Origin: Nitzschia sp. pyKryTriq1
Lineage: Eukaryota > Bacillariophyta > Bacillariophyceae > Bacillariales > Bacillariaceae
DNA length: 64,000 nucleotides
Direction: 5' to 3'
Assembly: GCA_956465555.1 (NCBI GenBank)
Contig: OY101126.1
Coordinates: 786,501-850,500, forward strand
The first letter of the stretch is position 1; each line of letters starts with the position of its first letter. Made by a program: the position numbers and the translations under genes. Below are positions 637 through 62,774 of this stretch, piece by piece. The notes below the pieces were generated by a model. That model saw only the letters and a program-made list of their open reading frames with translations, had not been told where the DNA came from and made no database searches.

Positions 637-1824
637 CGGTTTTTTATTGACCTTGGGCGACAAGCAAGCATCTACAGCGTGACGGCTTTGCCAATTTTTA
701 CTACAGTACTTAAAATACTATATCGTAAGATTTTCTTAGCCTTTTATCATCGTTTACTAGGCTACGGTACAACTGTATCAACTGGAAATCCTCGTGTTAC
801 ATAATTAGTGAATCATCAGGCACCCACCACTTGATTCCATGCTCGACCTGGCGGATGCCAAATACGAATATGATTTTCTTCGCTCAGTACAGCAATGCTA
901 TGGGACATGTCACTACTGATAATGAGTAGAGTAACGGGGTATGTAAAATATTGTTTTCTTTCTCTTCTCTCGAAAATAGATATCCATTCATCGACAGCCC
1001 TTCCCGCTCTCATCATTCATCTCACGAACAAGAAACTCTTCTCACTGTTCGCGGAGGGAAGAGACACCGCTGAGACCGAAGAACGGCAAATCCGCTAGAT
1101 GATGATGCTGATGGCATGGCGTAATTTTGCCATAGTATGTGTTGGTACTGTCCTGGTACTGCACTGTACTACCGGTACGAGTTCCAGGTCTACCGGTACT
1201 TGTGGTACTGTACAGCGTCGACCGGTACTATTCGCCCCATCCGTCGTCCTGCCCATGCCTCCGATCGGTTTGCTTGGCCGGCGGGCGCAGTAGTGACAGT
1301 TCCTTTTATGTTTAGAATCAATGTACGATGTCCTTGTTCGATAAGAATAGTGTCTTGTTAAGGTCTGATATGACACAACCATTTAAGGATTGCTTTATTC
1401 GGCTTCCTTAAAGAACTATAAGTAATAATGATGAAGTTTCGGATTGTCAAATATGCCCAACCTCCACTGGTACATTCTCGGACGTAGAAAAGACAACACA
1501 GAGCACAACGCTATATATACAGTTTTGCACTTCACAAAACTCAGCCGCCCTCCGGGAGCGTGTATTTTTTCTCCCACACTCATCATCATCCGGTATCACA
1601 GGCCCGCTACTCGACTACTACAGTACCGGTACGAACCTCGTTCGTTCCTGGTGGCTGCACACGCTTCACGCTTCACGCACTGTGCACAGCGCCTACTCTC
1701 ATCTCACACCACCGCAGAGCGCTTCTCTCGTCGCCAACACCTCGCCTTTCTCTACGAATACCAAATTCGTTCGAACAACAAGCATTCAAACACCGCTACG
1801 GCAAGTAGTTATAACTCATATACC
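637..1824. other. Intergenic spacer between the tandem paralogues
   Basis: No convincing gene is seen. It holds a GTAC-word cluster at about 1141-1237 and a single TACCGGTA site near 1624. An ORF in frame with the downstream gene opens at about 1444 but has no conserved sequence before 1825, so it is treated as leader. Confidence 0.6.
1141..1237. repeat. GTAC-palindrome cluster
   Basis: A run of short self-complementary words: GGTACTG, GTACTACCGGTAC, CTACCGGTAC, GGTACTGTACAG and ACCGGTAC. It is one of about a dozen such clusters in the window's spacers. Confidence 0.6.
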
Positions 1825-2430
1825 ATGGGACTTTCCAAGAAACGAAGCATCGAATCACCTCCAGTATCATTGATCAGCAGGAAGCGAAGTCGATCGCTCT
1901 CCCCCCACGAAGACCGCGCTCCCGTCGGGAAGCGTGTCAAGTTTGATTCAAACGGCAGCGGCGCCATCAAGACTTCCGAAAGATACATCGATATCCTTCG
2001 TTCTGATCTCGATAAGCCAAATATGTGGTACTCTCGGGCAGAGAGAGAAGACATCCTGGCAGAATGCGAGGAAGCTATTCAAGAGTTTCGGCAAGAAGAC
2101 CTCGAAGAAGAATCGAACTATCTGAGAGTGTTTGATTACTGCAGCCAAAGCCCTTCTCAAGAATCAAGCGACTTTCTGGAAACTGCAGAGCTTCACATCC
2201 CTGCCACCGCACGAGGCATTGAATGGGGCTGGGCGACTTCGAGCGGATCACTGAAGAGAAATCATGTTCGTGAACTCCTCAAGGTACAGAACCAGATTCA
2301 GGGTCTCAGCGAAGCCATGCGAGATCGCGTGCTATCGTCTCGATCTCTCAAATCGAGTAGACCGGGACGTGTTATGGCTCGGCTGCTGGGTGAATGCGAT
2401 GCTCGAAACGAGCAGTCAAATGGTTTGTAG
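1825..2430 (+). CDS. RGLE-family hypothetical protein, tandem copy 2
   Basis: A 201-residue protein of unknown function, paralogous to 1-636. The start at 1825 (context ACCATGG, with C at -1 and G at +4) was chosen because homology to copy 1 begins just downstream and the in-frame sequence back to 1444 looks non-coding. Conserved parts are GKRVKFDS (about 33-40), ERYIDILRSDLDKPNMWYSRAERED, RGIEWGW and MRDRVLSSRSLKSSRPGRV. Charged residues dominate, with no signal peptide and no membrane segment. An SxxSRKRSRSLSP stretch near the N-terminus is basic and serine-rich and may be nuclear-targeting or phosphorylated (inference). The two genes are in the same orientation, consistent with local duplication. 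Confidence 0.8.
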   Translation: MGLSKKRSIESPPVSLISRKRSRSLSPHEDRAPVGKRVKFDSNGSGAIKTSERYIDILRSDLDKPNMWYSRAEREDILAECEEAIQEFRQEDLEEESNYLRVFDYCSQSPSQESSDFLETAELHIPATARGIEWGWATSSGSLKRNHVRELLKVQNQIQGLSEAMRDRVLSSRSLKSSRPGRVMARLLGECDARNEQSNGL

Positions 2431-2654
2431 CGATATTCACTGAAGACACCGCCCCAGCATTATGCGGCGAGTAGCACTTACAGCAACGAGAAAGCTCACA
2501 CTGAGCTATTATACTATGACAAAGAAAGAGGCTAATCCACTCAATTGCTTCTTGTATATTCTAATAATAGTCATTACAATTATTCAAAACTGCTCCGACG
2601 TCCAACCACTAAAGACCATTATCTTCTTTGAACACAGGAAGGACCTACCAGGAC

Positions 2655-4172
2655 CTACCGTATCGTTTCTTCACGCAGAATATTCAGATAGAGCTCACCA
2701 TACCCTTCATATTCTACGCCTTGCGTTATGCTCTCTGGTAGATTTGTAGTTTGTCCTTTGACAGGTTCAATTTGGGTATCCTCATGCCACTCATTAAAGG
2801 AATTCACCATGATTAGGTTGTCGATATTTGCATCGACAAGTTTTCGAGCATATTGCAATGCTGTCTTGAACAAGGAGCCAGGAGGGTCATTTGCCGTCAG
2901 ACGTCGAGAAAGAGGACCATGTTCTTTGTCTGGGCGCACCGCAAGATCATTGTATCCGGGTGAAACGGAGGGTATAAAAGCGCATTTCTGCTCTGCGGCG
3001 AGAGATTGCCATTCTCGCGCTCTCTGAAAGTGCTGTCGAACTCCTGGCTCTGTCGCGTACGGAGAAGGTTTAAACATACTTCCATAAACGTCGTAGTTCG
3101 TAACAGCATCCAAGGTCGTGAAGGGAGGATGGATATCGTCATCATCAGGTGCACGGTGGAAAACATGATCGCCTGCGATGAAGATTTGAAAACCGTTGTT
3201 ACGAGCCCCAAGCCGCATTTGCCCAACGACAAGATCAAGTATCCCCAAACCTTCAAGTTTCCTCGACAAATAGATAAACAGCACCGGTTTTCCATCAATT
3301 CGGTAGTAGTTCGGATGAGTGAAGTAGTTGCGGCAGATATACTCGATATCCGGTGTGACGCGTTGGGTAGAATATCCTTCGCTCTCTCTGATGCGTCCTG
3401 TAGTCTCATAAAAGAGAGCTATCTTGTGATCTCCTAGCGCACTATGCTGCAGAATGACATCCTTGGTTGTGGTGTCTTCTCGGGATCCCTCTCCCCACCA
3501 GGATGTTACCCACAATCTTACGTTGGCCTGAGCGCTCCACTTCAAGTGTTGATATATCGTTTGAGGGTCGGAATCGTCATATTCGCCTAACACGGGCTGT
3601 TGAATCGTCGCTAATTGCTCTCTTAGATAACCCGAACCACGATGAAAGTCGTCGGAATACCAGGGATAATAGTAGACCCCGACTGTAAGATTTCCTTCCG
3701 GTCTCACCCAAGGAGTGGAAAAAAAGCCCCCAGAATCATCACCCCCCTCCGATTCTGAAACGGTCCCTTCTGATTTGGTCATGAAATATAAAATTACACC
3801 GCCCACGAAGATTCCCATTGCAAAGACCATCAAATACGAGCAAAAGCGGGCAATTTTTATCGTTTGACGATAGCTCAGACCGCAACAGCAAGTGTATCCT
3901 GTTTGTTTCGGAATTAAATAGGAAGGGACTTCCATATCGCTCGTGGGTAGCGTGTCGTTGGATGGATAGTATTGTTCTTTCGTTGCCTGCAGTCGTTTGA
4001 TGGCTTTAAGATATGCTTTTTGTTGGACATCTGATATTTTCTCCGTGTCTTCTTTTTCTTCGTCCGACCATACATCGTCATCATCGTCATCATAGGAGTA
4101 GGCAACATGACGCCCTACAAGTACCATTGAGCGGTCGGTACGCCCACGCTTTTCTGCATAGAGATGGGACAT
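2655..4172 (-). CDS. GH99-like glycoside hydrolase, type II membrane protein
   Basis: A 505-residue protein with an acidic cytosolic N-terminus (Asp run at 28-33), one membrane anchor at about 109-131 and a lumenal catalytic domain at about 150-500. The domain opens with GVYYYPWYSDDFHRGSG and closes with NSFNEWHEDTQIEP, the two hallmark blocks of the GH99/endo-alpha-mannosidase-like clan (known family features). Between them lie WVTSWWG, KPVLFIYLSR and IAGDH segments. Family members act on alpha-mannosidic linkages of glycans in the Golgi, and the single N-terminal anchor fits a Golgi type II enzyme. Related WbsX-like proteins of unclear activity share these motifs, so the substrate is uncertain. 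The start ATG at 4172 is followed by an uninterrupted frame. The 3' end faces the RGLE gene 225 bp away. Confidence 0.8.
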   Translation of the reverse strand: MSHLYAEKRGRTDRSMVLVGRHVAYSYDDDDDDVWSDEEKEDTEKISDVQQKAYLKAIKRLQATKEQYYPSNDTLPTSDMEVPSYLIPKQTGYTCCCGLSYRQTIKIARFCSYLMVFAMGIFVGGVILYFMTKSEGTVSESEGGDDSGGFFSTPWVRPEGNLTVGVYYYPWYSDDFHRGSGYLREQLATIQQPVLGEYDDSDPQTIYQHLKWSAQANVRLWVTSWWGEGSREDTTTKDVILQHSALGDHKIALFYETTGRIRESEGYSTQRVTPDIEYICRNYFTHPNYYRIDGKPVLFIYLSRKLEGLGILDLVVGQMRLGARNNGFQIFIAGDHVFHRAPDDDDIHPPFTTLDAVTNYDVYGSMFKPSPYATEPGVRQHFQRAREWQSLAAEQKCAFIPSVSPGYNDLAVRPDKEHGPLSRRLTANDPPGSLFKTALQYARKLVDANIDNLIMVNSFNEWHEDTQIEPVKGQTTNLPESITQGVEYEGYGELYLNILREETIR

Positions 4173-5102
4173 TTTCCAAAGCCTTGCCCGTTACGAACAG
4201 AATATTCGGACAGCTTCTTCTTCGTAATAGGACGGGATTTGGCGCCTCAAAGGAGCAACGAGATTAGGATCGATGAAACAGACAGCCTCATCGAAGGAAC
4301 GCGTGTGGCAAATCAGCAAGTCTTCTCGTCGTTTCTTACTACTTTTGAGTTCAGAGTTGGAGGTTAGTTCGTTCGAAGCAGGGAACGACAAATCGGACTG
4401 GAATTTTTGGCGCGCCAGGCGACCGAACGGAAAAAGACCGCTTCCTCACGATGTCTGTCATACCGGTACTGTATGGCGCGAGTATGTACAGCACAGTACC
4501 GGTACAGTACCAGGTGTACCTGGTACCTGGTTCATAGGCGGATTGAGGAGATGATGACTGGAGGGTGGAGGGACTACACAAGTCCGTGCGGCGCTCATCG
4601 TCGCGGACGATCCATCCACCACACAGCCCCATCACCAAATGACCCAACTCTGAAATGAAACCCTACTAGTTTCATCATATAAAACAAATATTATGATATA
4701 AGTGGTGAAGTAGATTCACAATCTACGAGTACTTTACTGTTGGTGGTCAAACAATGTCCAATGGATTGGAGCCATCCAGCCAGCATGGTTTGACCAACGG
4801 GAATAATAAACAGTACTATAATGAATAATGATACGGGAATGGGTTGGTACAGGTAGTAGTAGTAGGACAGTGCTGGGATAAAGTGAAAATCAATCATGAG
4901 TCATGAGTCACTGATGCGTCTGTACTGTGTCAGTTTGAGTTCAACGCGAGTAAATAATTATGACCGTCCGTCCAAGCCAGATGAAAAGATCGAAGTACAA
5001 GATGCAAGATTTTTTGACGATGAACATTGAACCATAATCCGAACACTTGGATGCCGACTTCAGAAAGGTGCTTTCAAAAGAGCATAAAACAGCTAGGAAA
5101 AT
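4173..5102. other. Divergent promoter region with GTAC cluster
   Basis: Spacer between two divergently transcribed genes. It contains a GTAC-word cluster at 4461-4532, including an inverted repeat with 9-bp arms at 4507-4515 and 4518-4526 separated by GT. No coding potential is seen; the ORFs here are short and unsupported. Confidence 0.6.
4461..4532. repeat. GTAC-palindrome cluster with 9-bp-arm inverted repeat
   Basis: Contains TACCGGTACTGTA, CAGTACCGGTACAGTACC and GTACCAGGT-GT-ACCTGGTAC, all self-complementary. Confidence 0.65.
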
Positions 5103-6008
5103 ATGAATATGCAAAGGAAGCGTCTCTTTTTTCTTGCCACCTTGGCATGGGCGCAAACGAATTCGATCACGAGAGCGTGGACCGGCGTTTCCACAAGATT
5201 CTCGACGAGGGTAGATCATCTACTACCGGATGCACAACGACCGGGCACCCATCCTAGACTTTTCATGACATCCGACAATGGAGAAACGAGTGCTGCTTCG
5301 GACGATGGTAGAATTGATATTTCCGTGGATGATCGTTTATATCGGATTCGGTTGCCTCGGGCACCTGGGATTGAATGGGGTACCGATCTGAGCTTCTCGT
5401 TTGTTTACGTACGCGACTTGGAACCAGCTGGTCCTGCCTCCATATCAGGAATGGTTAGCAAAGGAGATCAGCTGTGTGAATTGATTCCCATCTCGGAAGG
5501 AGCTCAACCAGTAAATTTGCTGGGTGCTAGTTTCGACACAGTGATGGGATCCTTCGCCTCGCTCGATAAGACCGTGAAGGACCTGGACTTGGTATTCTTC
5601 AAAGGAACCAAAGATGAGCTCAAGGCCGCTTGCGAAGGCGGAGAAGCTGGTGAGAAAAAAGAATTAATTACTGTGACAGTCATTCAGGACAAGGGATCTC
5701 CAAAGGAGAAAGTAGTCAAGTTACAAGCGCCACCTGGCGTCAACATCCGAGAACTCCTTGTCGAAAACGAAATCAACGTGTATCAAAGTGTGACGCGTTG
5801 GACAAATTGCAAGGGCAAGCAGCTATGCGGGACGTGTATTGTCAACATTACAGAGGGACTGGGCAATACCAATTGGAAGAGTATGGACGAAGGTTCGACG
5901 TTGCGTGAAAATCCAGAGAGCTACCGACTCTCTTGCGTTGCCTTTGCATACGAGGATGTCACCGTCGAGACCTTTCCGCCCGTCAACGCCGACCAATGGA
6001 CACGTTAA
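5103..6008 (+). CDS. PDZ-like plus [2Fe-2S] ferredoxin-type protein, PnsB3-like
   Basis: A 301-residue protein. A hydrophobic N-terminus (about 7-18, FFLATLAWAQT) followed by basic and hydroxylated residues suggests a signal peptide plus plastid transit peptide; there is no perfect ASAFAP motif. Residues about 75-172 resemble a PDZ domain (VRDLEPAGPASISG..KGDQLCEL). Residues about 186-295 form a ferredoxin fold. The cluster Cys are C236, C242, C245 and C278, spaced C-x5-C-x2-C-x32-C. The x5 gap (CKGKQLCGTC) differs from the usual x4 of plant ferredoxin but, from my knowledge of the family, matches the [2Fe-2S] domain of plant PnsB3/NDF4-type proteins. An electron-carrier role in the plastid is inferred. 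The start ATG gives the hydrophobic leader; a second Met lies at residue 3. Confidence 0.75.
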   Translation: MNMQRKRLFFLATLAWAQTNSITRAWTGVSTRFSTRVDHLLPDAQRPGTHPRLFMTSDNGETSAASDDGRIDISVDDRLYRIRLPRAPGIEWGTDLSFSFVYVRDLEPAGPASISGMVSKGDQLCELIPISEGAQPVNLLGASFDTVMGSFASLDKTVKDLDLVFFKGTKDELKAACEGGEAGEKKELITVTVIQDKGSPKEKVVKLQAPPGVNIRELLVENEINVYQSVTRWTNCKGKQLCGTCIVNITEGLGNTNWKSMDEGSTLRENPESYRLSCVAFAYEDVTVETFPPVNADQWTR

Positions 6009-6151
6009 GCCATAGGCAAAAACCAAACGAGCTATTTGCAATATCATGCTACTGCCAAAGTAGAAACATGTCATCGAATATATGGTAATCCAGTAGACTA
6101 CCGGTATACTTTTTCCACCGCTTCGCAAAAGTATTTGCCATAATCTCGCTA

Positions 6152-6423
6152 GTTTTACGAGCGTGTAGTAGTACAGGTACAGTCGCTTATCATTCCAAGT
6201 TGCAGCTGGTCAATCGACTGCCTCAGGCATTTTATGCTAAAGAAGGCCCCGATATAACCCTTGGTCAACATGGCCATCGGCAAAGTGGTTTTACGAGCGT
6301 GTAGTAGTACAGGTACAGTCGCTTATCATTTCAAGTTGCAGCTGGTCAATCGACTGCCTCAGGCATTTTATGCTAAAGAAGGCCCCGATATAACCCTTGG
6401 TCAACATGGCCATCGGCAAAGTG
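6152..6423. repeat. 136-bp perfect-register tandem duplication
   Basis: Copy A is 6152-6287 and copy B is 6288-6423. They differ at one base (C at 6195, T at 6331). Each contains GTACAGGTACAG. The repeat lies in the 490-bp spacer (6009-6498) between two convergent genes. The rest of the spacer holds an ACCGGTATAC word near 6110 and nothing else recognisable. Confidence 0.95.
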
Positions 6424-6498
6424 TAGTACGCGCATGCTATATTGCTTAGCTAATATTCGTTATTTTTAACTTAATACAAAATCCGGGAAACCCCATCT

Positions 6499-14531: not shown

Positions 14532-15119
14532 TCTTGATTTACAGCCTAGCTTTGAGTTGCAAGTACTGTAAGTATGGACGATTCAAATTTAAGGCACGGC
14601 TGCTTTTCTTATTCTTATTCTTCCTCTTCCTCTTCTCTTCTCTTCTCTTCTCTTCTCTTCTTCTTCTTCTTCTAAAGCGAAAGCTTGTATCAACCTTTTT
14701 GCCGTCTTCGCTTTTCAATCCATCAAAAAATGTTATTCCAATAAGGCCGATAATGATGGAGAATGGAGACGAATATGCAATATATGCATGAAAGAGATGC
14801 CGAGATTGAGAAGGACGAATGACGTCGTGTTTGCACGCAAATCTTTTAGAGCTCGTCGGCATTTTTGCGACAAAATTCTAGCTACTATTATGGTCGGATT
14901 AATCGAATGCCATATTTAGGCCTTTTTTGGTGTGGACGGCGAAGATCCGTTTTTGATCGATCGGCTCGCCGCGCCCGTCCGAGAGGTCCGAGCAACAAAA
15001 GCAATGCGATGATGATGATCGGTCTTCGACGATTGACCATGTCCATGTTTCTCGCAAACAAACAAAGTACCTCAAGAACGATCATTGTCCATCAGCCTTT
15101 GAACGCTCTATCTCGTCCT
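14532..15119. other. Divergent promoter between the prenyltransferase and PMM genes
   Basis: Contains a strand-biased pyrimidine tract (TCTTC)n at about 14621-14673, which lies in the upstream or leader region of the minus-strand gene as a purine tract, and a TGACGTCG element at 14820-14827. An ATG-led frame opening at 14907 or 15009 is continuous with PMM and might be an N-terminal extension. Confidence 0.55.
14621..14673. repeat. Polypyrimidine (TCTTC)n microsatellite
   Basis: About 53 bases of uninterrupted C/T built on TCTTC then TTC units, 90 bp upstream of the prenyltransferase ATG. Confidence 0.85.
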
Positions 15120-16218
15120 ATGTCCGCTGCCGAACCAGACAACAAAAAGTTGAAAATGTCCTCGCCCGAGAATCCCCGCATCATTGCCTTGTTTGATGTC
15201 GACGGCACTCTCACTATTCCCAGAGGTGAAGTGACCCCCGACATGATGAACTTTATGAAAGAACTCTCCAAGAAGATCACTGTAGGAATCGTCGGTGGAA
15301 GCGACCTACCGAAGCAAGAAGAGCAGCTTGGAGAAGGAATTGTCAAAGTGTTCCCATACAACTTTTCTCAGAACGGATTGGTGGTACGTGCTTGTTGTTC
15401 ACGTGTGTTTGTTCGACTAGATTATTGTACCGGTAGTAGCTTGGTTGCGGAATCATTCCCAGGATGGATCGGCTTGGCTCTCAATTTGCACGCTTATTAG
15501 CAACGCTGTGAAATCCATCTATTACTTTGACTTGACTCTGCATCCATGATATCACCCGCCGTTTACAACTTCTCACAAATCTCAACCTCCCCAAACCGCA
15601 GGCCTACAAAAATGGCGAATTGCTCGAGTCCCAAACCATTGCCAAGTTTCTAGGCGAAGACAATATCAAGCGTGTGGTCAACTGGGTTCTGAAATATTTG
15701 TCGGAGCTTGACCTCCCCGTCAAGGTAGGATTCGATGATGATTCTAGCAGATGCATCTTCGCGTTTTACCATGTGTATTATTCTATTGACCCAACTAATA
15801 TCTGTTCATTTTTCATCAGCGTGGAACTTTCATTGAATTCCGAAGTGGAATGCTTAACATTTCTCCCATCGGTCGTGATTGCTCGAGGGAAGAACGTAAT
15901 GACTATGAAAAGTTTGATTTGGAGAACAACATTCGTAAGAACATGGTAGAAGCCATGCGAAAGGAGTTCGCCGACTTGGGCTTGACATACAGCATTGGAG
16001 GTCAAATCTCCTTTGATTGCTTTCCGAATGGCTGGGACAAGACTTACGCGCTCAAATACGTCAACCCAGAGGACTTTGACGAGGTTCATTTCTTCGGTGA
16101 CAAGACATTTGAAGGAGGAAATGATTTTGAAATCTTTTCTCATGAACGAACGATCGGGCACACGGTTACGTCTCCAGAAGATACCAAGGAACAATGTGCC
16201 AAGCTTTTCATGAGCTAA
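15120..16218 (+). CDS. PMM: Phosphomannomutase, three exons
   Basis: A HAD-superfamily enzyme converting mannose-6-phosphate to mannose-1-phosphate, feeding GDP-mannose for glycosylation and, where present, ascorbate. Exons: 15120-15383, 15602-15724 and 15820-16218; both introns are GT-AG and phase 0. Assembled length is 261 residues, or 249 from the alternative ATG at 15156, matching the usual 245-255. Key motifs are FDVDGTLT (nucleophile and acid Asp), [32 protein letters not shown] (sugar-phosphate binding), [16 protein letters not shown] and [15 protein letters not shown] (Mg ligands). Intron 1 contains a GTACCGGTA word. In-frame ATGs at 15009 and 14907 would add an N-terminal extension; PMM is normally cytosolic, so the shorter start is preferred. 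The convergent RAD54 gene lies 231 bp downstream. Confidence 0.93.
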
Positions 16219-20392: not shown

Positions 20393-20938
20393 TGGGATGG
20401 ATTATTGTAGGAGAATGGATGTTGGATGCTTGGTGCCTATCTGTCTCGAACGGGATTCGATCAAGGTCGGATGGAACAATGGTACCGGTATGAGGGTAGA
20501 AGGACTTCTTGACCCTCCTTGTGCTGATGGCTGATGAGATGGTGCAGTGTGCGGTTTTCTCTTCGGCTTTCGACGCGCTGTCACGACGTTTCGCGTTGCG
20601 TTGCGTCAGACAACTTTCTTCGGAGGCAAGTTCAGTGCCCCATTGAGGTACTGAAATCACGTAGAACCGTCGTAGACTGGAACGAAATTTTTGGCTCGCT
20701 TCTCTTCAAGTCGAGCTAGTCGCACAGGGACCTACAGCCTACAGTACCGGTACAGTATCACATCTATGTACCGGTATCTACCTGTACTGTACTGTACCGG
20801 TACAACACTTCTCTTGGTAGACAGCTTGTAGATTTCCGCTCACTACAAGTACCCTAGAGTAGAGAGTAGTCGGCGAGAAGTGCTGGTACCTGGTACCACT
20901 ACAAAAGAAGTGTATTATTCCTCATATTCTCTTGTTAT
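20393..20938. other. Spacer upstream of RAD54 with GTAC clusters
   Basis: Holds a GTAC-word cluster at 20741-20803 and a GGTACCTGGTACC word near 20885-20897. No gene is seen. Confidence 0.6.
20741..20803. repeat. GTAC-palindrome cluster
   Basis: Contains ACAGTACCGGTACAGTA, TGTACCGGTATC and CTGTACTGTACTGTACCGG, all self-complementary words. Confidence 0.65.
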
Positions 20939-26894: not shown

Positions 26895-26924
26895 CCCATA
26901 AAGAGATAGGGTATCATAGAGTAC

Positions 26925-27012
26925 CAGGTACCGGTACTGTACTGTACCTGGTAGAGACTACCGTACAGAGGTACAGTAACTGATATTCGGGTACAGTACC
27001 GGTACTCTACTC
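26925..27012. repeat. GTAC-palindrome cluster
   Basis: Contains GTACCAGGTACCGGTACTG, TACTGTACCTGGTAG, GTACAGAGGTACAGTAA and GGGTACAGTACCGGTACTC. Confidence 0.7.
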
Positions 27013-27541
27013 GACTAACTAGTATCTCAACCTGAAAATGTATTACGTATCTAGTTTACCAGAGTACGCAACTAAGCGAACCAACCAACAAACGCTAAGA
27101 ACTTCTTCGTAGTCAGTGCAGTATAGTAATCTTGGTATATCTGATAATTTCAGATTAGTAGTCAGTCAGCAGCAAGCAAGTAGTGAGTCACTACTAGTAG
27201 TAAGAGAGAAAAGTACTCTACTCTACTAGTAGTATATCGTAAAGCAGCGAAGCAGAGTATTCATCGCAAGACAGACCTTCACACTTGTGACTACACTAGA
27301 AAGGAAAAGTGAATGCGGTTCGACTATACTAGATAGATACTGAGATGCGGAATCACCACTGCCCGACGATGTACTCAAAGTTCCTTGTCAGTACTAGCAA
27401 TTCCCTCCCAAGAAGGGTGGGGCCATCACTTGCGGGCCATCACTTGCTGCTTCCAGAAAAGCCAGAACAGACGGACGATGCCGACCAACCAAGTTTCCGT
27501 GCTGTTGCGTGCGAGCAGCTACTAGTAGAGTACAAGTGCCT

Positions 27542-30229: not shown

Positions 30230-32013
30230 TTTGTAGATGATTCGATGTTGGCTGTGATGGTCGACGGCAGAGTACTACTTGTCGAACACTTTCAAGAAGA
30301 TGGGATGGGAGGATGACTACTACGAGTATGTTGCGTGAATGCTTGCTGATGATGATGATGATGATTCAATTGAAGATGGATTTCCTCATCGAAAGAATAA
30401 TGTGGCTTCTTGCTGTCGAATGTCGAAGTTTCAAGTTGATGCCAAAAAGCCGCGCCAAGAAAATCACGGCGGCAAGGGGGAGAGAGAATTCGATGGCTAA
30501 ATCTTTCGAAAATCGGACGCCCGGCGTGAGAAGTGGTCGATCGGGTCGAACAAAAATCCAAAAATCTGCAAGCCGAGAAAGCAGAGAGCTGGGTTGAATA
30601 ATAATTGATGAAGGATACGACGACGGGTACCTATGGTACCGGCGGCAGAGAAAATCAACTGAAAAATGATACACTGCATCCACTCGACCATGGCATCACT
30701 CAGTACCAGCACTGCAGCAGGCTGGCAGCAGCTGAAAACAAATAGAACATCACACCAAAATAAAGGTCAATTGGATTTACACAAAGCAGGTCGTGTATCC
30801 GCATCCCCAATGTACCGCAGTTTGGAAAAAAGAATTGGCTGTTGGTGCTTGATTTTTTGATAAATTATAAATCAATCAACTATTCAAGCCCCAAATGACC
30901 AAATTTCCTTTTTTGAGGCTGTGACAGAAATTGAAACCATTTGTTGCAGGTATGTCATCATCCGCCAGGGCGCGGGTCGTCAAGGCATGAATTTGAAAAT
31001 ACTGATGTTTGGGAAGACAGTATGAGTGGAGCAGTGCTGGCGGGGAGTACGAAGAGTAGGGCAAAAAGTAGTTGCCAATGCCGAAGGAAGCATTACTTTG
31101 ATCCTTGTTTCCTTCCTGCACCCTGCACCCTGCACCTGCACGGTGCCCATTCTTTGGAGATCAGCGCGAGAACCCAGACCTCTACTAGCTAGAGCTACCC
31201 ATAGTAGGGCCCTATCTCTCTCTCTCTCTCTCTCTCTTGCTCCTTTATTACCACACCGGTAGCCTACCTACTCGCACAGTACCGGAACAGTGCAGTCTCG
31301 CGAGTCGCGATTTCCGCGTATTTGGCGGCATCGGTCTTCTCTTTTCTCTATGCAGTCTTCATCATTCGCCGATCGATAGCTGATCTAGTGACGAAAATCG
31401 AGGGCATAAATCAGTAGTGATGGCGAAATAAAACTACGAGAAGAGAAATTTAAGTGCTTCGGTCCTTCTTTGGTACCTGCCTTTTCAAGTTGTTATCTTA
31501 ATCGTAAAAACGTCAGACAGCTTATGTATTATTTTGATGGGGCGCTACTGCATGGTAGTCGTGCAATCATAACGAACACCAGAACTTTCCAGGCAATAAT
31601 CGAGAGCATTAAATACAGTCAGTACCAGGAGACCTACAGTAGCCAGTGGGAGTTCCAGCAGGTGTAATAATACAGTACTGTAGGTACCTACGCTACCGCT
31701 ACGCGAAACGAGCACCACAGACAGCTCGAAGTACTTGTACTGTAGAATAGAGCGCGTGGATTTGCCCTGTGGGCGAGGAGGAGGGTGCGGGGGGGCGCGT
31801 TGGACCGCGGAGGAACAGGACAGCGGGTCCCCATCCAGAATGAAAAGTGCGTGCACCGCCAGTCATCGTCCCCATCGTTCTTCCTTTGGTCTTTCGTCAC
31901 TGGATGCTTGATGGACGGACCCTGTGTTGCTTCATTGTTGAGACTCTTATCTCTTCTCCTGCTATTAGGACCAACACTATCCGCGCAGGTTGTCTGCCAT
32001 TAATTATCTCTCG
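30230..32013. other. 1.8-kb divergent spacer
   Basis: No supported gene. Contains a GATGAT microsatellite near 30347-30365, a (TC)11 run at 31215-31236 and scattered GTACCG words. An ATG at 31911 opens a 30-codon signal-peptide-like reading frame (LLRLLSLLLLLG) that stops at 32002, just before the HD gene start in another frame. Confidence 0.5.
31215..31236. repeat. (TC)11 microsatellite
   Basis: Uninterrupted TC dinucleotides in the spacer upstream of the HD-domain gene. Confidence 0.95.
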
Positions 32014-34646: not shown

Positions 34647-35154
34647 GCCGAAGAATGTCACGGGTTTCTTTCGAGGGAGCGTAGTATGGTACTTGCACTT
34701 TCGGCGGGTTAATTCGAGTGTCGAGCGAAGCAGGGACCAAACAATAATGAGTCGTCGTCGTTGCGCAATTAAATCTAGCGAGATTGATTTATAACAGTGA
34801 TTGTTGCTGTCAACAATGATTGCGATTTGCGACGATGATGTTTTGTGTTTGTGTGGGCGCGGTGGGCGGCGGAACGAGGAACACGGAAGATGCGAGAGAG
34901 CGAGATTGAAAATGCTTGGTGGGCGAGGTCGATGATGAAGAACGTGGCGGGAATGATCATATCGCGATGAAGCACGTTCAACCGTTCAACCCGTTCTTCC
35001 ATGCACGGTCGCACCGCGCGCTCGGTAGGTCGGTGTCTGAAAAATCGCGCGTGCTGATTGCTGATTGCTGATTGGCCTACAGGTACGAGTAGACCTACGT
35101 ACTCTTTCGTAGACAACAACATGTTTGTCGTGGGTCATTCAGCCACCACAGTAC

Positions 35155-35215
35155 AAGTACTGTACGAGTATGTACCTGGTACGGTACCAGTACAGTACTG
35201 GTACTTGTACGGTAT
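35155..35215. repeat. GTAC-palindrome cluster with 10-bp-arm inverted repeat
   Basis: GTACCAGTAC (35184-35193), A, GTACTGGTAC (35195-35204) is a near-perfect 21-bp palindrome, flanked by further GTACCTGGTAC words. Confidence 0.7.
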
Positions 35216-35490
35216 GTATTAGTAAATAGACCCTATGCCAGAAACAAAATACCATCACGCCAACAACAGAGTAAAACTGGTAAATACTTGCAGCTTGCTT
35301 GCAATGTAAGGATAGACGCTACCGTACGGTACAGTACCAGGGACCGCGACCCTAACGGTACAGGTACAGTACCAGTACCAGTATGGAACATCCAAGGATC
35401 GAGCGATCACGCGCGCTCCACCTTCCTCCACTGAACTCAAAAGCGCGTTAAATCGAAACCGCGGTGTCTGCTTCGCAGCGTGGCCCACGG

Positions 35491-35769
35491 TTCTTGGCCT
35501 GGGCCAAGAATAGGCCAAGATTCTTGGCCTGGGCCAAGATTCTTGGCCTAGAGCCCCCCCTCTCTGTGCTCCAGTCAAAGTAGTGGAACTCTTTGTTGCT
35601 CGGGGGCTTGGACGTTCGGATGCTATGATGCGATGTTTGCAATTTGAAATTCGACGACAAGTCTGTTTACTCTTTTGGGGGTACAGAAAGGGGGTAGGCC
35701 TTGGGCCAAGATTCTTGGCCTGGGCCAAGACTAGGCCAAGATGCTTGGCCTGGGCCAAGATTCTTGGCC
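35491..35769. repeat. Pair of 58-bp direct repeats made of nested TCTTGGCC/GGCCAAGA palindromes
   Basis: Copy 1 is 35491-35548 and copy 2 is 35712-35769. They match at 56 of 58 positions by eye. Each holds alternating TTCTTGGCC and GGCCAAGA words, so each can fold on itself (TCTTGGCC-TG-GGCCAAGA) and the two can pair in either orientation. 163 bp of unique DNA separates them. No transposase, and no clear terminal repeat or target duplication was identified. Confidence 0.9.
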
Positions 35770-36059
35770 CATGCCAAGCGGGCTTTGCCACAGAGCGTGG
35801 CTAGCGCGAAAGAGCAGTTGTCCAAGCGTGCCCGTAAGCGAGTTCCACGTTAGTTCGCGGTGACCCCGCACCCTTGGATGTTCCTGGTACCGGTACGAAC
35901 AAAGTACTGTACTGTAGAGAGTGCAGACGGACTGACGGACGGACCAGAGTGCACGTGCCCATCTACTGGATTGGTTAGTTTTGTAGTTATCACAGTAAAA
36001 GAGAATAAATAGCTACCACTCATAGCAACCGCAGCAGGGCTAATAGTACAGCAACTTTC

Positions 36060-37991: not shown

Positions 37992-38750
37992 GGTAAAAGA
38001 GATAGTCTACTGTGCCGTATACTCTTGTCAGTGTCTGATGTGGTAAAATAGGAAGTCACCACCAAAACTTGCTTGTTGGACACTTGATGCGAGATGCGAG
38101 CGATATGGATGATGGATTTTGGATTTGGATTTTGGCCGGCGGACGGAGGATGGATGGAGGGTGGCCGTTTTGACCAAGTCGACTAAAAATAACCTTCGAC
38201 GTTGCATTTTTTGTGTGTGATGTGGATTGGCGGGCGCGCCGGCCAAATCGGCTTCAACGGACGCCGAGGCTTATTCTCAATGCTTCGCGCCATCCATTTA
38301 CTTATAGAGTTGGCGGTCTCACCCAACTTCAGTCTTGGAGGGAGTGGCTACATACCCGGTACAAGTACCAGGTACAGTACCTGGCACTGTACTCGTACTG
38401 CAATAGCTCCTCTTTCCTCATCGCGCACCCCATCTCCGTCATTATCGTCGCCTTCCACAATGAACTCGGAGGAGCTTGGAGTTTTGCGGTATCAGGTATC
38501 GTTGCAAGTTAATATTGACGACCCTTGCGCCGCCTCTTATAAGAAGATATATTGGCAATTTCATCAATAAGATCTGGCTATTGGAGAGATTTGAGGTGGT
38601 TATTTTTCAGGTTTAGGAGACGAGGAAGGCCTTTGAATTCGGTTCGAGAGGTTCCATCAAGCCAGCAACTGAGAGGCGTTGGAAACTTTTAGGAATCCGT
38701 TTCATCGGTTGAGTGCGTCTTTTTGCTCGGGACTGAAGTCCACGTACGTA
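37992..38750. other. Divergent promoter region
   Basis: Contains a GTAC cluster at about 38356-38400. A possible upstream exon for the plus-strand gene exists: ATG at 38460, 36 coding bases, donor GTATCG at 38496 and an in-frame acceptor AG at 38737-38738. It is not strong enough to annotate. Confidence 0.5.
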
Positions 38751-42698: not shown

Positions 42699-43330
42699 TG
42701 CACGGAAGAAGTAAGACCTATTAGAGCTAGTACAAAGCATTACGTGACGCAAAGAAATTGAAAGTAAGTAGAAAGTCATTATTTGTCTCCGATCTACACT
42801 TAGAAGTGCCTTTCACGTTCATTTGAACTGTACCAGTCGTATGGATTCTCAAGAGGAGTAATGGAGGTGAACGATCTCTCTAGCTAGAGAATAACGAGGT
42901 CTTCTCTCTCTCTCTACTCTACTTATTTGTAGAGAGATACTCGTAGTAACCAGAGACAGGAGATTTAAGCAGTACGGTACGAGTAGGGCCTACAAGGAGG
43001 GAGCTACCAGGTCCCGTAGTACCAGCCAACATCTAACGGTACTGTACAGTCTACAGTACCTGGTACCATCCGTCGTCAGTTCAGTCACGTTACGTTCACT
43101 TGAAAGTCGACTCATATGACTCTTCCAAATGCTGACGTCATCACTCATCACATAAAGAACAAAAAGAAGTGACAAGCCGCATCACTAAAACGAGAACCCC
43201 GCGGAAACGGACCTTCGAAGATACCTTTGGTAATCGAGAGAGCGGAAAACGAGAGATGAACATACAGCAACAAAACAAGCAACACCAAGCAACAGATACA
43301 ATTAAGATAACAGACTATCCTTTTCTAATC
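42699..43330. other. Spacer and promoter of the first small secreted gene
   Basis: Holds TC/AGAG low-complexity sequence (about 42875-42940), a GTAC cluster (about 43017-43068) and a perfect TGACGTCA at 43133-43140, about 190 bp before the ATG of the next gene. Confidence 0.6.
43133..43140. promoter_or_regulatory. Perfect CRE palindrome TGACGTCA
   Basis: Full 8-bp bZIP/CREB-type site 190 bp upstream of the small secreted protein gene at 43331. Regulation by it is inferred. Confidence 0.5.
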
Positions 43331-43740: not shown

Positions 43741-44527
43741 ACCGGTATCCAATTTTGGAGAGCCTGACTACGACCATACCGCTAGATCCTCCTTCGCCGC
43801 CCGCGCGACGATACGACAAGAAAACTGAATTTGTTATTTTATTCGTCGGTACGGAACGAAGACATGGGAGCTTTGTACAATCTTCATTTGGACGACAGAA
43901 CTATTCCGCTGCACGCATTCAATATTGAAATCATCGTCGAATAGGGCGGCTGATTCTCAAATATCTTCTTCTCACTGCCCCAGCACCAGCGGAGGGCAAT
44001 CAAAAGCTAAAAGAAACAAAATTTAAACCTTTTTTATGCTCCAAACTAGTAGAGCTAACCATCTGACGTTGGACGCAACCAACCTTCAGAGTAATGCTCC
44101 TGCTACTACTAGAGTAGAGAGAGACAGAAGGGGACGCTTCGGCGCATGTACAGCTACGAGTAGACCACTTACCAGGTACAGTACCAGGTACCAGGTACCT
44201 GGTACCGTTCGAGGGTCAGTCTCCGAGCTCAATCTTGCAATCTTGCCAGTCAGTCCCGTTGCCGCTATTAGGGATTTTTTATCTTGCTGTCCAATTCAGT
44301 ACTATTTCTACGTGAAGGGTATCTTTTGGAGGAGTTCTCCATTATTTTTCTTTTTGATGATGATGATTCGCGGAAGCGTTGAGGCGACTGTTCTGTGAGA
44401 TGACACCAGCGCCCCGCCTCGATGTTGTGATCTTTGAACAAGAGAAGCAACCGGCTCACAATCCACCCCATCAATAGATCGAACTCTCTTGATCCATCGA
44501 TCCATCCCAACACACCTACCAACACTA
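43741..44527. other. Spacer between the secreted paralogues, with GTAC cluster
   Basis: No gene. Contains the GTAC cluster 44168-44210, which includes a perfect 20-bp palindrome at 44187-44206. Confidence 0.6.
44168..44210. repeat. GTAC cluster with perfect 20-bp palindrome
   Basis: GGTACCAGGTACCTGGTACC at 44187-44206 is its own reverse complement; CCAGGTACAGTACC precedes it. Confidence 0.85.
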
Positions 44528-44986: not shown

Positions 44987-46269
44987 AACAACGGCGCCGT
45001 TGGTCGTGAACAGGTAGCGCATGAATGTCGTGGCAGCAAACGCCACAAGCAGAGAAATCCAAACAGCCGGTGCCCAATGTTGAGGGACGTCTTGCCTCCA
45101 GCCAAATCATCGGGAATCCGCGAGTAAGCTCAGGGCCGGAAAACAGCATCATGATTGGGTGCATGATACTACGTAGAGTACTACTTTCTATAACAATATT
45201 TTAGTAGCGGACTTGTTGTTCTACGAGTAGTCCCTACAGCTAATAGAGAGTAATCTCTTTTTCAACCCAAATGTCCTTCGTGCGACTCGCTAATTCTTGT
45301 ACTCTTTAGTAGAGTGAGTAGACTGGCGTTCTTCTTGGGCCCGCCATCGATCATCATGATGCATGTCGTCGGATGATTGGTCCAGTCCAGTACTCCTTCT
45401 AGTACTACTACCGGTAGTATGTCTACTCTCGAGAGAGTTCATCTCGTATTTTGCGGGCCACCACGACCAACTCCACCTTGTATGCCAAAGCGTGCTCGTC
45501 TAGTAGGTACATTGACGCGCAGGCCTCTGAAGCATGATCGAAAAAAGAAGATGGGTGGCCCGCGCATGACCTACCTACTCTAGTACTAATATTGTAGCCA
45601 GGCCGACGACTCTACTACTAGTAGACTACAGTACCAGTACTATACGAAAGTCTACTCGAGACTAGTTATGAAAATATGTTGGCTGTCGCCGCGAAGTAAC
45701 ATCCATGTTGATGTCGCAGTTTGAAGTTGTCGTACTACGAGACTGGCGCCGCCATCGTCGATTTTCACTCTTCGTAATCTTCTACCACTCGTAGTAGAGC
45801 TATTATACCGGCACGTACTGTATCATAGTCTACTACTTCTTGCAGCATGATGTACAAGTACAGTCTACCTGGTAGTCTACTGGTATTATGTATCATAGCT
45901 TTTTTTCGGCGTCTGTCAGTCGTCTTTGAACGACGACTCAATCGACCCTAATGAACGAATCATCATCCGTGGGAATGAATACGTCACACGCGTAATACTG
46001 TAAAAACCTCGCATTGCATCATCATCGCATCATCCTTTTTGTCGATCCCGCATCATCATCAGTCTCATCAGCCGCACAAACAACGGTGACGGTAACACAA
46101 GTAGTATGTAGAATAGGAAGGAAAAACAAGGACGCAACACCATTGTTCAAACTGCAGTACCAGGTACGAAGAGTGTACTCTGACCAATACCCACCATTGC
46201 CTCCATATGGTTTTCGTATTCCCCGCATTTTTATAAGCAGATAGACTACAAGTAGAGTAGAGGTGCAAG
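44987..46269. other. 1.3-kb spacer
   Basis: No supported gene. Rich in CTACTAGTAG-type and GTAC-type short palindromes (about 45580-45640, 45810-45890), with one ACGTCA at 45981-45986. Confidence 0.55.
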
Positions 46270-55923: not shown

Positions 55924-56083
55924 TTGAATTAATCTAATTGGTCATTGACATGGTTTCTTCAACAAAATATGAGCACAGTCGCCTAATATTGACTTCGGAA
56001 ACCGTGAACGAGGATGGCGCGCGGGAGTCTGGCGGGAGCCACCCCAAATGCGAACCTCGAACCTTCTTGGCTCGAAACGTTCC

Positions 56084-56155
56084 ACAGTACCGGTACCAGG
56101 TACCAGGTACAAGTATCGGTACAAGTACCCCTACCGGTACCTACCGGTAGGTACT
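56084..56155. repeat. GTAC-palindrome cluster
   Basis: CAGTACCGGTACCAGGTACC, ATCGGTAC, CTACCGGTACCTACCGGTAG and GGTAC words in 72 bp; one of the densest clusters in the window. Confidence 0.75.
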
Positions 56156-57244: not shown

Positions 57245-57819
57245 TCTTTTATTCTTCGCTGTTTCCTGTTTCGTTTTTTGTGAGCATCTTTTTTTTTTAA
57301 TAAGTGCGTGAGGTGCGTCTGCTTTATAGCTTGTACGAGTACCGCGGTACCGATAGACATAGACCTGGGGAAGCGTCTGCGGTGCCCTCCTCTGCGTCTG
57401 TGTACGTGCCGGTACTGTACTTATGTACCGGTCTTACAATTCACAGAAAAGTTCTGGCACGCGAATGGGTTGCACATAGAGCTGTACGGTCGTGTGAGTC
57501 AACTACAAAATACACATCATTGCGCTGAGAGGCTACTTCTAGTAGAGTCATAGAGCAGGGAGGGTCCATTCCAATAGCAGCACTCCGATACTGGCACGTG
57601 TAGTGCTTGCTACTACTGTAGCTTTCTGCTTTGAGAGCTCTGTGGGAATCCCCACCATGATCGTCGAGTCTGGCGTCAACGAGAGACCTGGACGAGAGTA
57701 GTGGTAGCCCTTTCGAGAACTGTATCGCCAAGGTCTTCTTTGATTATGTGGCCAATTACTAGTATTGTATTGTAAATGTTAGCAGTAACTCATTGAGGGT
57801 TATATCTCATCTTATTATT
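57245..57819. other. Spacer with GTAC words
   Basis: No gene. GTAC cluster at about 57331-57437 (GTACGAGTACCGCGGTACCG, GCCGGTACTGTAC, TGTACCGGTC) and a poly-T run near 57288-57298. Confidence 0.6.
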
Positions 57820-59469: not shown

Positions 59470-60024
59470 TATTCTAAGCTATCTAGAGAGGTGTTGTTGT
59501 GATAGAGAAATCCAATTGCCTCGCCTCGAGTGCCTGCACGAAATACGTTTGATGATGGATAGCGAAATGAGAAAAAGGAAAGAACGACGTCGCGACGATT
59601 GATTTTTTGTGTCTACGGAAGTACATCGATCGTGCGTTGCGCGTAGTGATGGAAGGCGTACCGGCAAGGCAACGGTACCGGTATCGTACTAAATGCTCGT
59701 ACGAGTACCCATAGCAGCGAACTTCGCTCGACTTCCTAATTAACGAAGTGTAAAGGCCCTACAAGTTCATACCTTTTTAGATGTGCCCTGATTGTCCGTT
59801 CATGAGGCAACGGAATGACCCCCGGATGAATTATTACTACTGTGTATGCTGCCTGTCCGCGCATTTTGCTGTGGCTTTATTATTGTGTGTATTGTATCGT
59901 GTATCGTGTATTGTGTTGTATCTTTTGATCCGAAGAATCATCATCGTCATTGTGCTCGAGCTTCATCCTCCTTTCATCGGTTGGAGGTCACAAACAAAAT
60001 CTACAAAACGCCAGTAACACGAGT
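59470..60024. other. Divergent spacer
   Basis: No gene. Short GTACCGGTATCG words near 59673-59685 and a TGTATTGTATCGTGTATCGTG low-complexity run near 59886-59920. Confidence 0.55.
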
Positions 60025-60972
60025 ATGATGGAGATTGCAAGCTGCCAACGATACCGGTATTTAATCCTTGTGCTTTTTCTGCTGATGACGGAAGGAGCAA
60101 GGGGACGAGCGAGTCGTCGAGATTTCAGGCCACGATGGCGTGACAACAAAGATGATACGCGTACTCGTACTCTTCATCGGAATACGACACCCCATTTCTC
60201 GCTTACAAAGTCCGCTATCCTTGGCATCCCACGAGGAGGATTCAATATTGCTACCGTTACAGCGACTGCTACTTCTGCCGTTTTGGGACTGAATGGCGGA
60301 TTGTTGCTCGCGAATCCAAACGCTGTCCTTCGACGAATCTACAAACTCAAGCCATCACGACAATCGGGGGAAGCCCAATTGAGCACAGTGCTCATGCGGT
60401 CGATTGGAAGTGTATCCATTGGAGCTGCCATCACAGTATATTCTTCAATTGTCTTGCAACGGTCATTAGAAATGGCTGTGGCATGGGGGTTGATTCCTCG
60501 GCTGTTAGTTTTTGGTTGGATTTTGGCGTTTTATCGACGAACTCCTTTTCTCGTTCTCAATACCATCATGGGATGCTGGTGTACCTTTTCGCTTTTGACG
60601 GGAGTGGAGACGGCACAGAAGACTTGGAAAGTTTTCTCGGTGGTCTCTATGATCAAGGGATTGTCGCTCGTTCTGGCGCCAAGGGCGGCTCTCCAACGAT
60701 TCTTGGGCGTCTCAATGATCGGAAAGAAGCCCCAGGCCCTTGTGAAGGCATTGGGCAACGAGGTTGCCACAAGTGCATTGCTAATGGGTTCGTTGGCTTT
60801 TGGTATGAATCCGATCCATGCCGCTGGTAGCGTATGTCTACTTTGGATTGCATTGCTGGCGGATATGGCTTGGATCGATAAAACCTGGCAACTGATGGAT
60901 GATCGACCCAAGACCCAATACATTCATATGGCTATTGCTGCCCTACTTGCATTGGGTTTCTTTTCCTCGTAG
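60025..60972 (+). CDS. Polytopic membrane protein with signal peptide, unknown function
   Basis: 315 residues from the ATG at 60025 (MMEIASCQRYRYLILVLFLLMTEGARG), which begins a clear signal peptide; an earlier in-frame codon at 59950 is GTG. A basic hydrophilic stretch follows (ASRRDFRPRWRDNKDDTRTRT), which could be a plastid transit-like region though no Phe-type cleavage site is clear. Then about six membrane helices (about 75-95, 128-150, 155-205, 218-235, 255-295 and 300-315). Between them are short loops such as KKPQALVKALGNEVATSALLMG and LLADMAWIDKTWQLMDDRP. No family is recognised. It faces the convergent aldo-keto reductase gene 175 bp away. Confidence 0.7.
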   Translation: MMEIASCQRYRYLILVLFLLMTEGARGRASRRDFRPRWRDNKDDTRTRTLHRNTTPHFSLTKSAILGIPRGGFNIATVTATATSAVLGLNGGLLLANPNAVLRRIYKLKPSRQSGEAQLSTVLMRSIGSVSIGAAITVYSSIVLQRSLEMAVAWGLIPRLLVFGWILAFYRRTPFLVLNTIMGCWCTFSLLTGVETAQKTWKVFSVVSMIKGLSLVLAPRAALQRFLGVSMIGKKPQALVKALGNEVATSALLMGSLAFGMNPIHAAGSVCLLWIALLADMAWIDKTWQLMDDRPKTQYIHMAIAALLALGFFSS

Positions 60973-61147
60973 AGTATTAGAGGCTTTGAAAAAAGGAACT
61001 CGGTGGTTTCATTGTGGTCCCTGGCGGATATCTTTTGGGGTTCGCGGTTCTCGTAGGACATTTATTCCGATTGCCGTATATGATGGAACATTTCTAGCTA
61101 CTGCAGAAGTGGTAGTCTAGACTAGACTACACGTAGGCTGTGCGACA

Positions 61148-62464
61148 TTATAATATTAGAGATGATTCGTTCTGCCAGCATTCTACCGTCATCGATGGCA
61201 CGGCCATCCAAAAATCGTGTGCCTGCCGAATACCATCCCAATGGTGCAAATTGTTTTTCCAAACTTTCGCGAAGGGCCCCTTTGTGGGATCTATTATTTC
61301 TTGTAACAGTGGATATTCGACTGGCGTCATGACTCCTTGGGCGGAATAAGAAAGATCGCTGTTGTTGTCATCGTTGTTTATCATAATAAAGGCGATATCA
61401 TGAAATCGATTCGCTGCTTCGGCGGCTCGTTGGACCTCAGCAACATTCTTGCATCCAATAATCGTGCAAGCAATCTGGGGATTCGAGAGGGCAAACATGG
61501 TCGCCAAAGAGGCCAGATTCACATTATGACGCTTGCATAGTAATGAGGCCTCAAGACAGGCATCTTTGAGTTCCTGTGACGCTGGGTGCCAATCGGCCAG
61601 TGTCAACGTTCCCTTGTCATTGGGCGGTGTCAAGAGCCCCATGGACAGTGGGGCAGCTGCCAGTAACCCCATACCTTGGCGTCTACAATAGGCAGCAAAG
61701 GATTCATTATCTTTGCCGATCGGTTGGGTCGTCAATCGGGTATTGTGCAGATTGAAATGACCGTACGTCAAGGCTTGATCCCAAATATTCTTGCCAAATA
61801 CTTCCAGGGAACGCTGCAGAATTTGATATTGCACTTCCAAAGGATAGCCCGTCATACCCAAAGCTTGGCACCAACCCTGCTCTTGCGCATGGATCATGGC
61901 CGGGATGGTCTCTTTCATGAGTTGATCTAAGGAAGGGGCAAATTCAGGATCATGTAGCTGCAAGACATCAATCGTCTGGCACTGAAGTCTTTCTAGGGAT
62001 CGCTGGATCGATTGTATAGTGGTGTCGTAGGAGAAATCAAATTGCCGAGAGGGATCCGCTTCGTATCGTCCGACTTTGGTCTGAATGGTCATTTCCTTGC
62101 GAAAGGCCCGTAATTCGGCGCTCTCTTGTAGCGCCAATCCAATCACCACTTCCGAAGTGCCATGGCCGTACCACGGAGCCGTGTCGAGGAGAGTGATGCC
62201 ACATTCCACAACCGCAAAGCGAATCGTTTCTATCCATTCTTGGACACGGGGATGATCCTTTGTTATCGTATCGACGGTAAGAAGTGGCGCGGGGTGCTGT
62301 TGCTCATCACCAAGGTCGTCAGGAGTCCAGAAAAATGTGGAAAAGGAGGAGCAACCCAAGCCGACAATGGGAAGCGTGGGGGACAATTTGTCGTTGCCAA
62401 GTTGGGTGCCAAAGGCTCGCCGTGGAACCTTTTTCAAAGGAGTCGCCGATGCAGTGGACAGCAT
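61148..62464 (-). CDS. L-galactose-dehydrogenase-like aldo-keto reductase
   Basis: A 438-residue NAD(P)-dependent oxidoreductase of the AKR superfamily. The catalytic tetrad is visible: Asp and Tyr in LLDTAPWYGHGTSE, Lys in QTKVGRYE and His in LQLHDPEF. The order and spacing resemble plant L-galactose dehydrogenase (L-galactose to L-galactono-1,4-lactone, ascorbate pathway): LPIVGLGCSSFS opening, SYDTTIQSIQRSLERLQ, GMGLLAAAPLSMGLLTPP and a C-terminal ACTIIGCKNVAEVQRAAEAAN. It is longer than typical (about 320) because of an insertion near residues 40-65 (WTPDDLGDEQQHPAPLLTVDTI) and a C-terminal extension of about 80 residues. Substrate preference is inferred. PMM elsewhere in the window would supply mannose-1-phosphate to the same pathway, if it operates here. 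Confidence 0.8.
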   Translation of the reverse strand: MLSTASATPLKKVPRRAFGTQLGNDKLSPTLPIVGLGCSSFSTFFWTPDDLGDEQQHPAPLLTVDTITKDHPRVQEWIETIRFAVVECGITLLDTAPWYGHGTSEVVIGLALQESAELRAFRKEMTIQTKVGRYEADPSRQFDFSYDTTIQSIQRSLERLQCQTIDVLQLHDPEFAPSLDQLMKETIPAMIHAQEQGWCQALGMTGYPLEVQYQILQRSLEVFGKNIWDQALTYGHFNLHNTRLTTQPIGKDNESFAAYCRRQGMGLLAAAPLSMGLLTPPNDKGTLTLADWHPASQELKDACLEASLLCKRHNVNLASLATMFALSNPQIACTIIGCKNVAEVQRAAEAANRFHDIAFIMINNDDNNSDLSYSAQGVMTPVEYPLLQEIIDPTKGPFAKVWKNNLHHWDGIRQAHDFWMAVPSMTVECWQNESSLIL

Positions 62465-62774
62465 CGTACGAAGGATCCAGGATCACCTGCTTTGATTTGT
62501 TTGCTGTTATTGCGATTGACAAATATAGTTGACTTGGCCAAAAGTGTACGGTGTACTCTGCGGAAGAGAGCCGTCTTCGCTGTCTTTTATTATTACTGTA
62601 CATTCGGCGCCATGGTCCATGGTCGGTGTCGAGTGTCGACGGTCGATTTTCTCGTTTTGCAGTTTTTATTGCGTACTGTACCGGTACGAACTGCGTAATA
62701 AAAAAATATACTGTCGTGAATCCAGCAATCGACCACTACGACTGGAAATTTTCCGCGGAAAGATCCAACAAAAA
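62465..62774. other. Divergent spacer
   Basis: 310 bases; one GTACTGTACCGGTACG word near 62674-62689. No gene. Confidence 0.6.

Follow-up and report, generated by a model that had tools for sequence, protein, structure and literature searches.

Palindromic TA-flanked words in the non-coding DNA of a Nitzschia genome: neutral, indel-prone, favoured by a PHIS transposon and possibly scars of cutting at TA

Three described systems come closest to the abundant short palindromes considered here. The consensus footprints of the transposon Sleeping Beauty are TACAGTA and TACTGTA, according to PMC4378557; HIP1, according to PMC4390886, is an abundant cyanobacterial palindrome over-represented genome-wide; and NuwaI-type PHIS transposons, as described in PMC4482050, make CWG target duplications and occur mainly in animals. 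The palindromes in question, called words below, were noticed in a stretch of 64,000 nucleotides from Nitzschia sp. pyKryTriq1 (C12:786501-850500, the window; assembly of 40.65 Mb in 20 contigs), whose spacers, according to the original prediction, hold clusters of self-complementary words built around GTAC. We can say with good confidence that these words are neutral, prone to insertions and deletions (indels), centred on TA and favoured by a PHIS transposon; we infer further, with less confidence, that words are gained rather than lost and that a TA-cutting transposase is their writer.

The excess of palindromic words is real and genome-wide. Over the whole assembly there are 15,515 copies of TACCGGTA and 839 of the same word reversed, the control used for each word at this scale, and CCAGGTACCTGG has 89 copies against 3. 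Finer counts come from a working sample of 264 kb, made up of the window and 20 ten-kb pieces from C1-C3, and divided by a mechanical, hexamer-based coding model into 169 kb of coding and 95 kb of non-coding DNA; this model was built without RNA data, its weak calls are probably not genes, and the gene starts and spacer types taken from it are modelled, not mapped. Against expectations computed from dinucleotides, the sampled non-coding DNA contains 97 copies of TACCGGTA (0.89 expected), 79 of TACTGTA (5.7), 79 of TACAGTA (6.0) and 45 of TACCAGGTA/TACCTGGTA (0.5), and the tetramers CATG, TGCA and CTAG are not enriched there (ratio 1.0). The window itself exceeds the same expectation for GTAC (317 vs 130), GGTACC (24 vs 6.6), TACCGGTA (23 vs 0.26) and GTACTGTAC (11 vs 0.07), but CCAGGTACCTGG, from the word set first proposed, is present there once; the 20 further samples, pooled, agree with the window, and the pattern is thus not peculiar to it. 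Most canonical words in the window (112/123) lie outside the coding model, 6 of the remaining 11 being inside gene calls that score below 20, and TACCGGTA is found 18 times within the coding model of the whole sample. Near-absence from coding regions, as originally described, is therefore true of the longer words but not of GTAC itself, which is enriched 1.8-fold in coding DNA (492 vs 275 expected).

When all TA...TA pairs of the sample are surveyed, the words take a common form, TA + linker + TA. Chief among the enriched linkers is CWG; CCGG, CTAG, CTCG/CGAG, CTGG/CCAG and CAAG/CTTG follow, and CCWGG comes after them. Linkers that begin with C and end with G account for 196/679 of those of length 3, 306/814 of length 4 and 87/415 of length 5, and at lengths 3 and 4 no such excess is seen for AT, CA, GA, CG or GC cores. 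The centre of the 3-nt linkers is mostly W (158 CWG vs 38 CSG), as is that of the 5-nt linkers (45 CCWGG vs 2 CCCGG/CCGGG), and the linkers CATG and CGCG show no enrichment. GTAC occurs because the main linkers begin with C and end with G; rather than the common core for which it had been taken, it is a by-product of the actual unit, TA-(C...G)-TA.

The words are commonly joined into chains, 144/247 neighbouring pairs at most 30 bp apart sharing one TA exactly. Such sharing places GTACs 5, 6 or 7 bp from each other with second peaks at 11-12 bp, and the distances between non-coding GTACs do peak at 5-7 bp and 11-12 bp, those of 4 and 8 bp not rising above expectation. The linkers of neighbours that share a TA are nearly independent (24/144 identical vs 18.9 expected; 10 pairs of 3-nt linkers vs 18 expected), and 321 chains consist of a single word. 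Tandem repeats, with their adjacent identical units, would look different, and the view that the clusters keep a word set while its order varies is borne out. Of 25 complex 14-mers present in at least four large loci, 21 are made of chained words, the remaining 4 coming from one other repeat.

The turnover of the words can be followed in a segmental duplication shared by C1 (~4.28-4.33 Mb) and C3 (~3.14-3.19 Mb), which is 96-99.8% identical in the stretches read and ~98% identical over the 21.8 kb used for comparison; the counts omit alignment blocks of fewer than 600 columns. No conservation of words is detected in it: 22/64 non-coding words differ between the two copies, vs 14% of other non-coding 8-mers and 12% of those far from words, and in the small sample more than 12 columns from gaps the words are substituted at the background rate (3/231 vs 79/8154 elsewhere, P=0.49). 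A raw excess of substitutions in words (15/372 vs 106/8947) disappears once the columns near gaps are removed. What does exceed the background is the number of indel openings. Near words of either copy there are 17 per 940 columns vs 28 per 8379 elsewhere, a 5.4-fold ratio that is inflated by indels which themselves create the word they are counted beside; with the count restricted to words that both copies keep intact, the ratio is 3.0-fold (9 per 706 vs 36 per 8613, P=0.006), and eight control tetramers recounted in the same way give 0-1.25-fold. The words therefore lie in indel-prone DNA, without detectable constraint. Some differences between the duplicates amount to one unit at TA (CAGTA, CTCGTA, and CGTGTA with an adjacent substitution), as does CGAGTA at locus L006, all of them unpolarised; the other indels near words are 3-bp CTA-type steps, one tandem TCGTAC unit and messy events. 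The same duplication carries light-harvesting genes. A light-harvesting protein at L068 has as its best matches 6ly5_A 'FCPI-7' (E 1.5e-90) and 6l4u_5 Lhcr11 (E 1.4e-88), both chains from Chaetoceros gracilis, which points to a diatom as the likely source; a search with the start of an 18S gene, run without a positive control, had no hit.

The words are also the preferred landing sites of a transposon. A non-autonomous copy in the window (35385..35884, ends approximate, minus strand), with ends GGAACATCC...GGATGTTCC and target copies CAG and CAT, sits between two word clusters that adjoin it on either side, one of 4 words (35330..35383) and one of 3 (35888..35916), and its family has at least 107 matches in the genome. 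On C1, like-oriented ends of the family at 1691676 and 1697637 (~6 kb, CTG on both sides, intervening DNA partly read) enclose a DDE_Tnp_4 transposase region (C1:1695507-1695980), and the family is therefore assigned to PHIS (PIF/Harbinger-type). Among the copies behind those matches 18 were inspected, with the ones re-fetched in L048, L049 and L054 counted once. They duplicate a CWG target, with the same CWG on the two sides in 15/18; the empty site, as reconstructed without the element, has the form TA-C(C)WG(G)-TA in 11/18, a form shared by 9.9% of the 2646 CWG sites in non-coding DNA (binomial P 1.5e-7), and the insertion point falls inside a listed word in 10/18. An empty site holds 2.9 words on average, the corresponding means around CWG sites being 0.46 for random and 2.5 for word-centred ones, and two of the 18 hold none at all, so that this is a preference and not a rule. 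The words are in this sense a target in use, as had been suggested, but the user found is the PHIS transposon.

Just inside their ends PHIS copies, the one in the window included, also carry nested GGCCAAGAA/TTCTTGGCC palindromes in arrays that differ in the number and order of their members. One 2.7-kb non-autonomous copy (L047, C7:2034600-2037340) has two open reading frames (756-1367, plus strand; 1640-2347, minus strand) which look like captured pieces of host genes, judging by a match to the ZNF598 PAH domain that passes the cut-off (E 2.2e-6) and a weak, Rpc31-like one that does not (E 0.0038); several other copies are close to it in length.

As to the origin of the words, the reading we favour, with a probability of roughly 0.37, is that they are scars more than switches, a neutral and turning-over vocabulary of non-coding DNA that would consist of short insertions at TA, with a TA-specific transposase as candidate writer. 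A short insertion at a TA dinucleotide would turn TA into TA-linker-TA, and chains would form whenever a new unit landed on the TA of an older one. The generator could be the excision of TA-specific cut-and-paste transposons of the Tc1/mariner type, which would leave such scars behind, and the PHIS transposon, with its CWG target duplications, would then land preferentially in the words. The match to the Sleeping Beauty footprints, the same form of the other main words, the sharing of TAs and the indel-rich turnover together make scars of TA cutting the best single candidate. A footprint would have TA on both sides of a short remnant, and C...G linkers of lengths 3-4 are in excess between TAs but not between any of five other dinucleotide cores.

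Several observations weigh against scars of this kind. No TA-flanked terminal inverted repeat with matching ends is found in the 264-kb sample (~0.65% of the genome; repeats rich in TAC/GTA set aside), the at least two Tc1-like DDE_3 matches have ends that begin TA-CATTTTGCGG and do not match the linkers, and TACATGTA is not enriched in sampled non-coding DNA (1 vs 1.6 expected). To account for three linker lengths, several families or several cut geometries would have to be assumed. The enriched linkers GAG/CTC (37 + 31, ~5-6x) and the trinucleotide-like GTAG (62, 45x) break the C...G rule, and the bases that flank isolated CTAG and CCWGG words are skewed (61% C, n=28, and 79% G, n=7, respectively). 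Within the duplication, many of the indels close to words do not amount to a whole unit, the one-unit differences might be losses through slippage between direct repeats, a moderate constraint on words is compatible with just 3 substitutions, and two of the control tetramers, CTAG (18/42) and TATA (9/30), vary much between the copies too (the other six at most 18%). Lastly, in coding DNA the 6-bp units that preserve the frame are not clearly favoured (51/325 vs 28/231, P=0.27).

Other TA-flanked inverted repeats were considered as the parent element and set aside: that at L016 is a gene duplication, that at L005 a word-like pair, and a pair at 7540-9177 of L021 (TA-flanked, 18/18 bases, TGTTGGACAGATCGCGCG) begins TGTTGG, fits no linker and is possibly another element. 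Elements of the Tc1/mariner type with a DDE_3 transposase are present at L025, whose inverted ends of ~106 bp begin TA-CATTTTGCGGAAC, and at L026, one side of which carries this end too. Among the other transposase profiles, DDE_1 matches one region (two matches), and Transposase_1 gave no match in a search run without a positive control. A bolder extension, which we hold to be quite improbable, is that a low-copy or domesticated TA-specific cut-and-rejoin enzyme wrote tens of thousands of scars into the non-coding genome and may still act; iterated palindromes would then have their counterpart in a eukaryote, and the arrays of words would later have come to offer the PHIS transposon a safe place to insert that it recognises.

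Enzymes writing specific units could be dispensed with altogether if slippage or microhomology alone made DNA that is cryptically simple, rich in GTAC, TAC and GTA, expand, contract and reshuffle. The indel excess is indeed seen beside GTAC alone as well as beside words (2.65-fold, P=0.006), several of the indels are the 3-bp CTA-type steps and one the tandem TCGTAC unit already mentioned, TAC/GTA trinucleotide runs are enriched, and CTAG tetramers are as variable as words between the duplicates. Such a process nevertheless fits poorly with neighbouring linkers that are identical barely more often than by chance and with 3-nt pairs that are fewer than expected, and it does not predict the W centres, the unenriched CATG and CGCG linkers or the many single-word chains. 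Slippage could be the source of part of the word pattern; as its whole explanation it seems somewhat unlikely.

The placement of the words bears on whether they have a function. Their density is 6.1 per kb in divergent spacers, 5.4 in tandem and 4.0 in convergent ones; it drops in the 100 bp next to modelled coding ends, with no sharp peak on either side, and no fixed relation to modelled gene starts or spacer type was found. None of the 13 spacers of 50-150 bp holds a word and 50/53 of those above 600 bp do, the counts growing with length. A placement that scales with spacer length and is sparse near coding DNA resembles, for that reason, tolerated insertions in free DNA. The promoter or insulator role put forward in the original prediction is not supported, since words occur in all spacer types, follow spacer length in number and are under no detected constraint.

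Another functional reading is that of selected arrays of binding sites, in which a dimeric or polymerising protein reads GTAC half-sites spaced by roughly half a turn of the helix, clusters being kept as single sites turn over, and in which the bound protein or open chromatin draws the PHIS transposon. The sharp palindromic grammar, the peaks of GTAC spacing and their absence at 4 and 8 bp, the near-universal presence of words in long spacers and a mild upstream excess (0.80 and 0.90 words per 100 bp at 300-400 and 500-600 bp from coding, among the highest well-sampled bins) all speak for such arrays. We nonetheless consider them unlikely, as no conservation is detected and indels are in excess, as convergent spacers and the DNA downstream of genes hold words too, word numbers scaling with spacer length, and as three different spacings would be unusual for one dimer. 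Creation of words by a methyltransferase together with a bias of mismatch repair that turns near-matches into words, on the model of HIP1, would agree with their abundance and palindromy (like those reported for HIP1 in PMC4390886), with linkers that are symmetric CG/CWG/CCWGG contexts and with TACTGGTA (25) and TACCAGTA (17) as the commonest one-base variants of TACCGGTA, but is very improbable given that words away from gaps are substituted no faster and indels are in excess, that non-coding DNA shows no CpG depletion (1.03) and that several enzymes would have to act to yield words of three lengths and several sequences.

Within the window, the eight stretches first described as clusters each hold 5-9 GTACs, and 7 of them are non-coding by the hexamer model. 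The remaining one (57331..57437) is GTAC-dense as claimed but half inside a modelled gene, with just 2 canonical words. The word clusters other than those beside the transposon copy comprise 3 words at 1170..1212 (8 GTAC within 1141-1237), 31635..31682, 43040..43065 and 45616..45639, 4 words at 38360..38397 and 45816..45885, 5 at 4461..4525, 6 including CCAGGTACCTGG at 44155..44204, 7 at 20740..20802 and 56088..56149, and 8 at 26922..27004 and 35152..35209. A copy of TACCGGTA that had been placed in intron 1 of a PMM gene lies at 15428..15435, which is 42 bases beyond the PMM domain match in the open reading frame 14850-15497 and outside the modelled coding segment, whose end is at 15350; such a position would fit the predicted intron. 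The window also contains a tandem duplication of 136 bp at 6152-6423 (99% identical) and, at 27236-27250, the 15-mer ATCGTAAAGCAGCGA, which has 169 copies in the genome (0 for the reversed control). Its 13-base core is found in seven sampled places, this one and six others, mostly after CTA/TAG-rich sequence, and these repeats are a second family.

Viral contigs were set aside as carriers of the words. Scanning them for long word chains gave 0 and 4 matches; L070-L072 have one TACCGGTA each and L073 has three (0.03 expected) along with 48 GTACs (21 expected), and other words are not found at density in any of these loci, of which L071 looked phage-like judging by its open reading frames. No earlier report of such a word vocabulary or of diatom scars appeared among the papers listed from PubMed Central, outside which most subscription papers lie. 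Should the words be scars, one could read in the spacers a record of cutting and rejoining and use it as a mutation clock; should they be binding arrays, they would rank among the commonest cis elements of the alga. Under either reading they contribute to an account of where a transposon family inserts, and searches for motifs in this alga need to beware of them, since they could be mistaken for promoter elements.

Compared with known systems, the words share with the Tc1/mariner footprints of Sleeping Beauty the identical 7-mers TA-CWG-TA and the TA on both sides, but here there are several CNNG and CCWGG linkers too, the units are chained and very dense, and no matching parent element was found in the sample. 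With HIP1 they share the vast genome-wide over-representation of a short palindrome; HIP1 lies in coding DNA too, whereas here the palindromes form a set, are rare in coding DNA, show an indel-rich turnover and belong to a eukaryote. The transposon that lands on them resembles the NuwaI-type PHIS elements in its CWG duplications and in the DDE_Tnp_4 transposase region of its long copy, and differs from them in that the present copies come from an alga whose antenna proteins are of the fucoxanthin type and show a preference for the longer context of a palindromic word.

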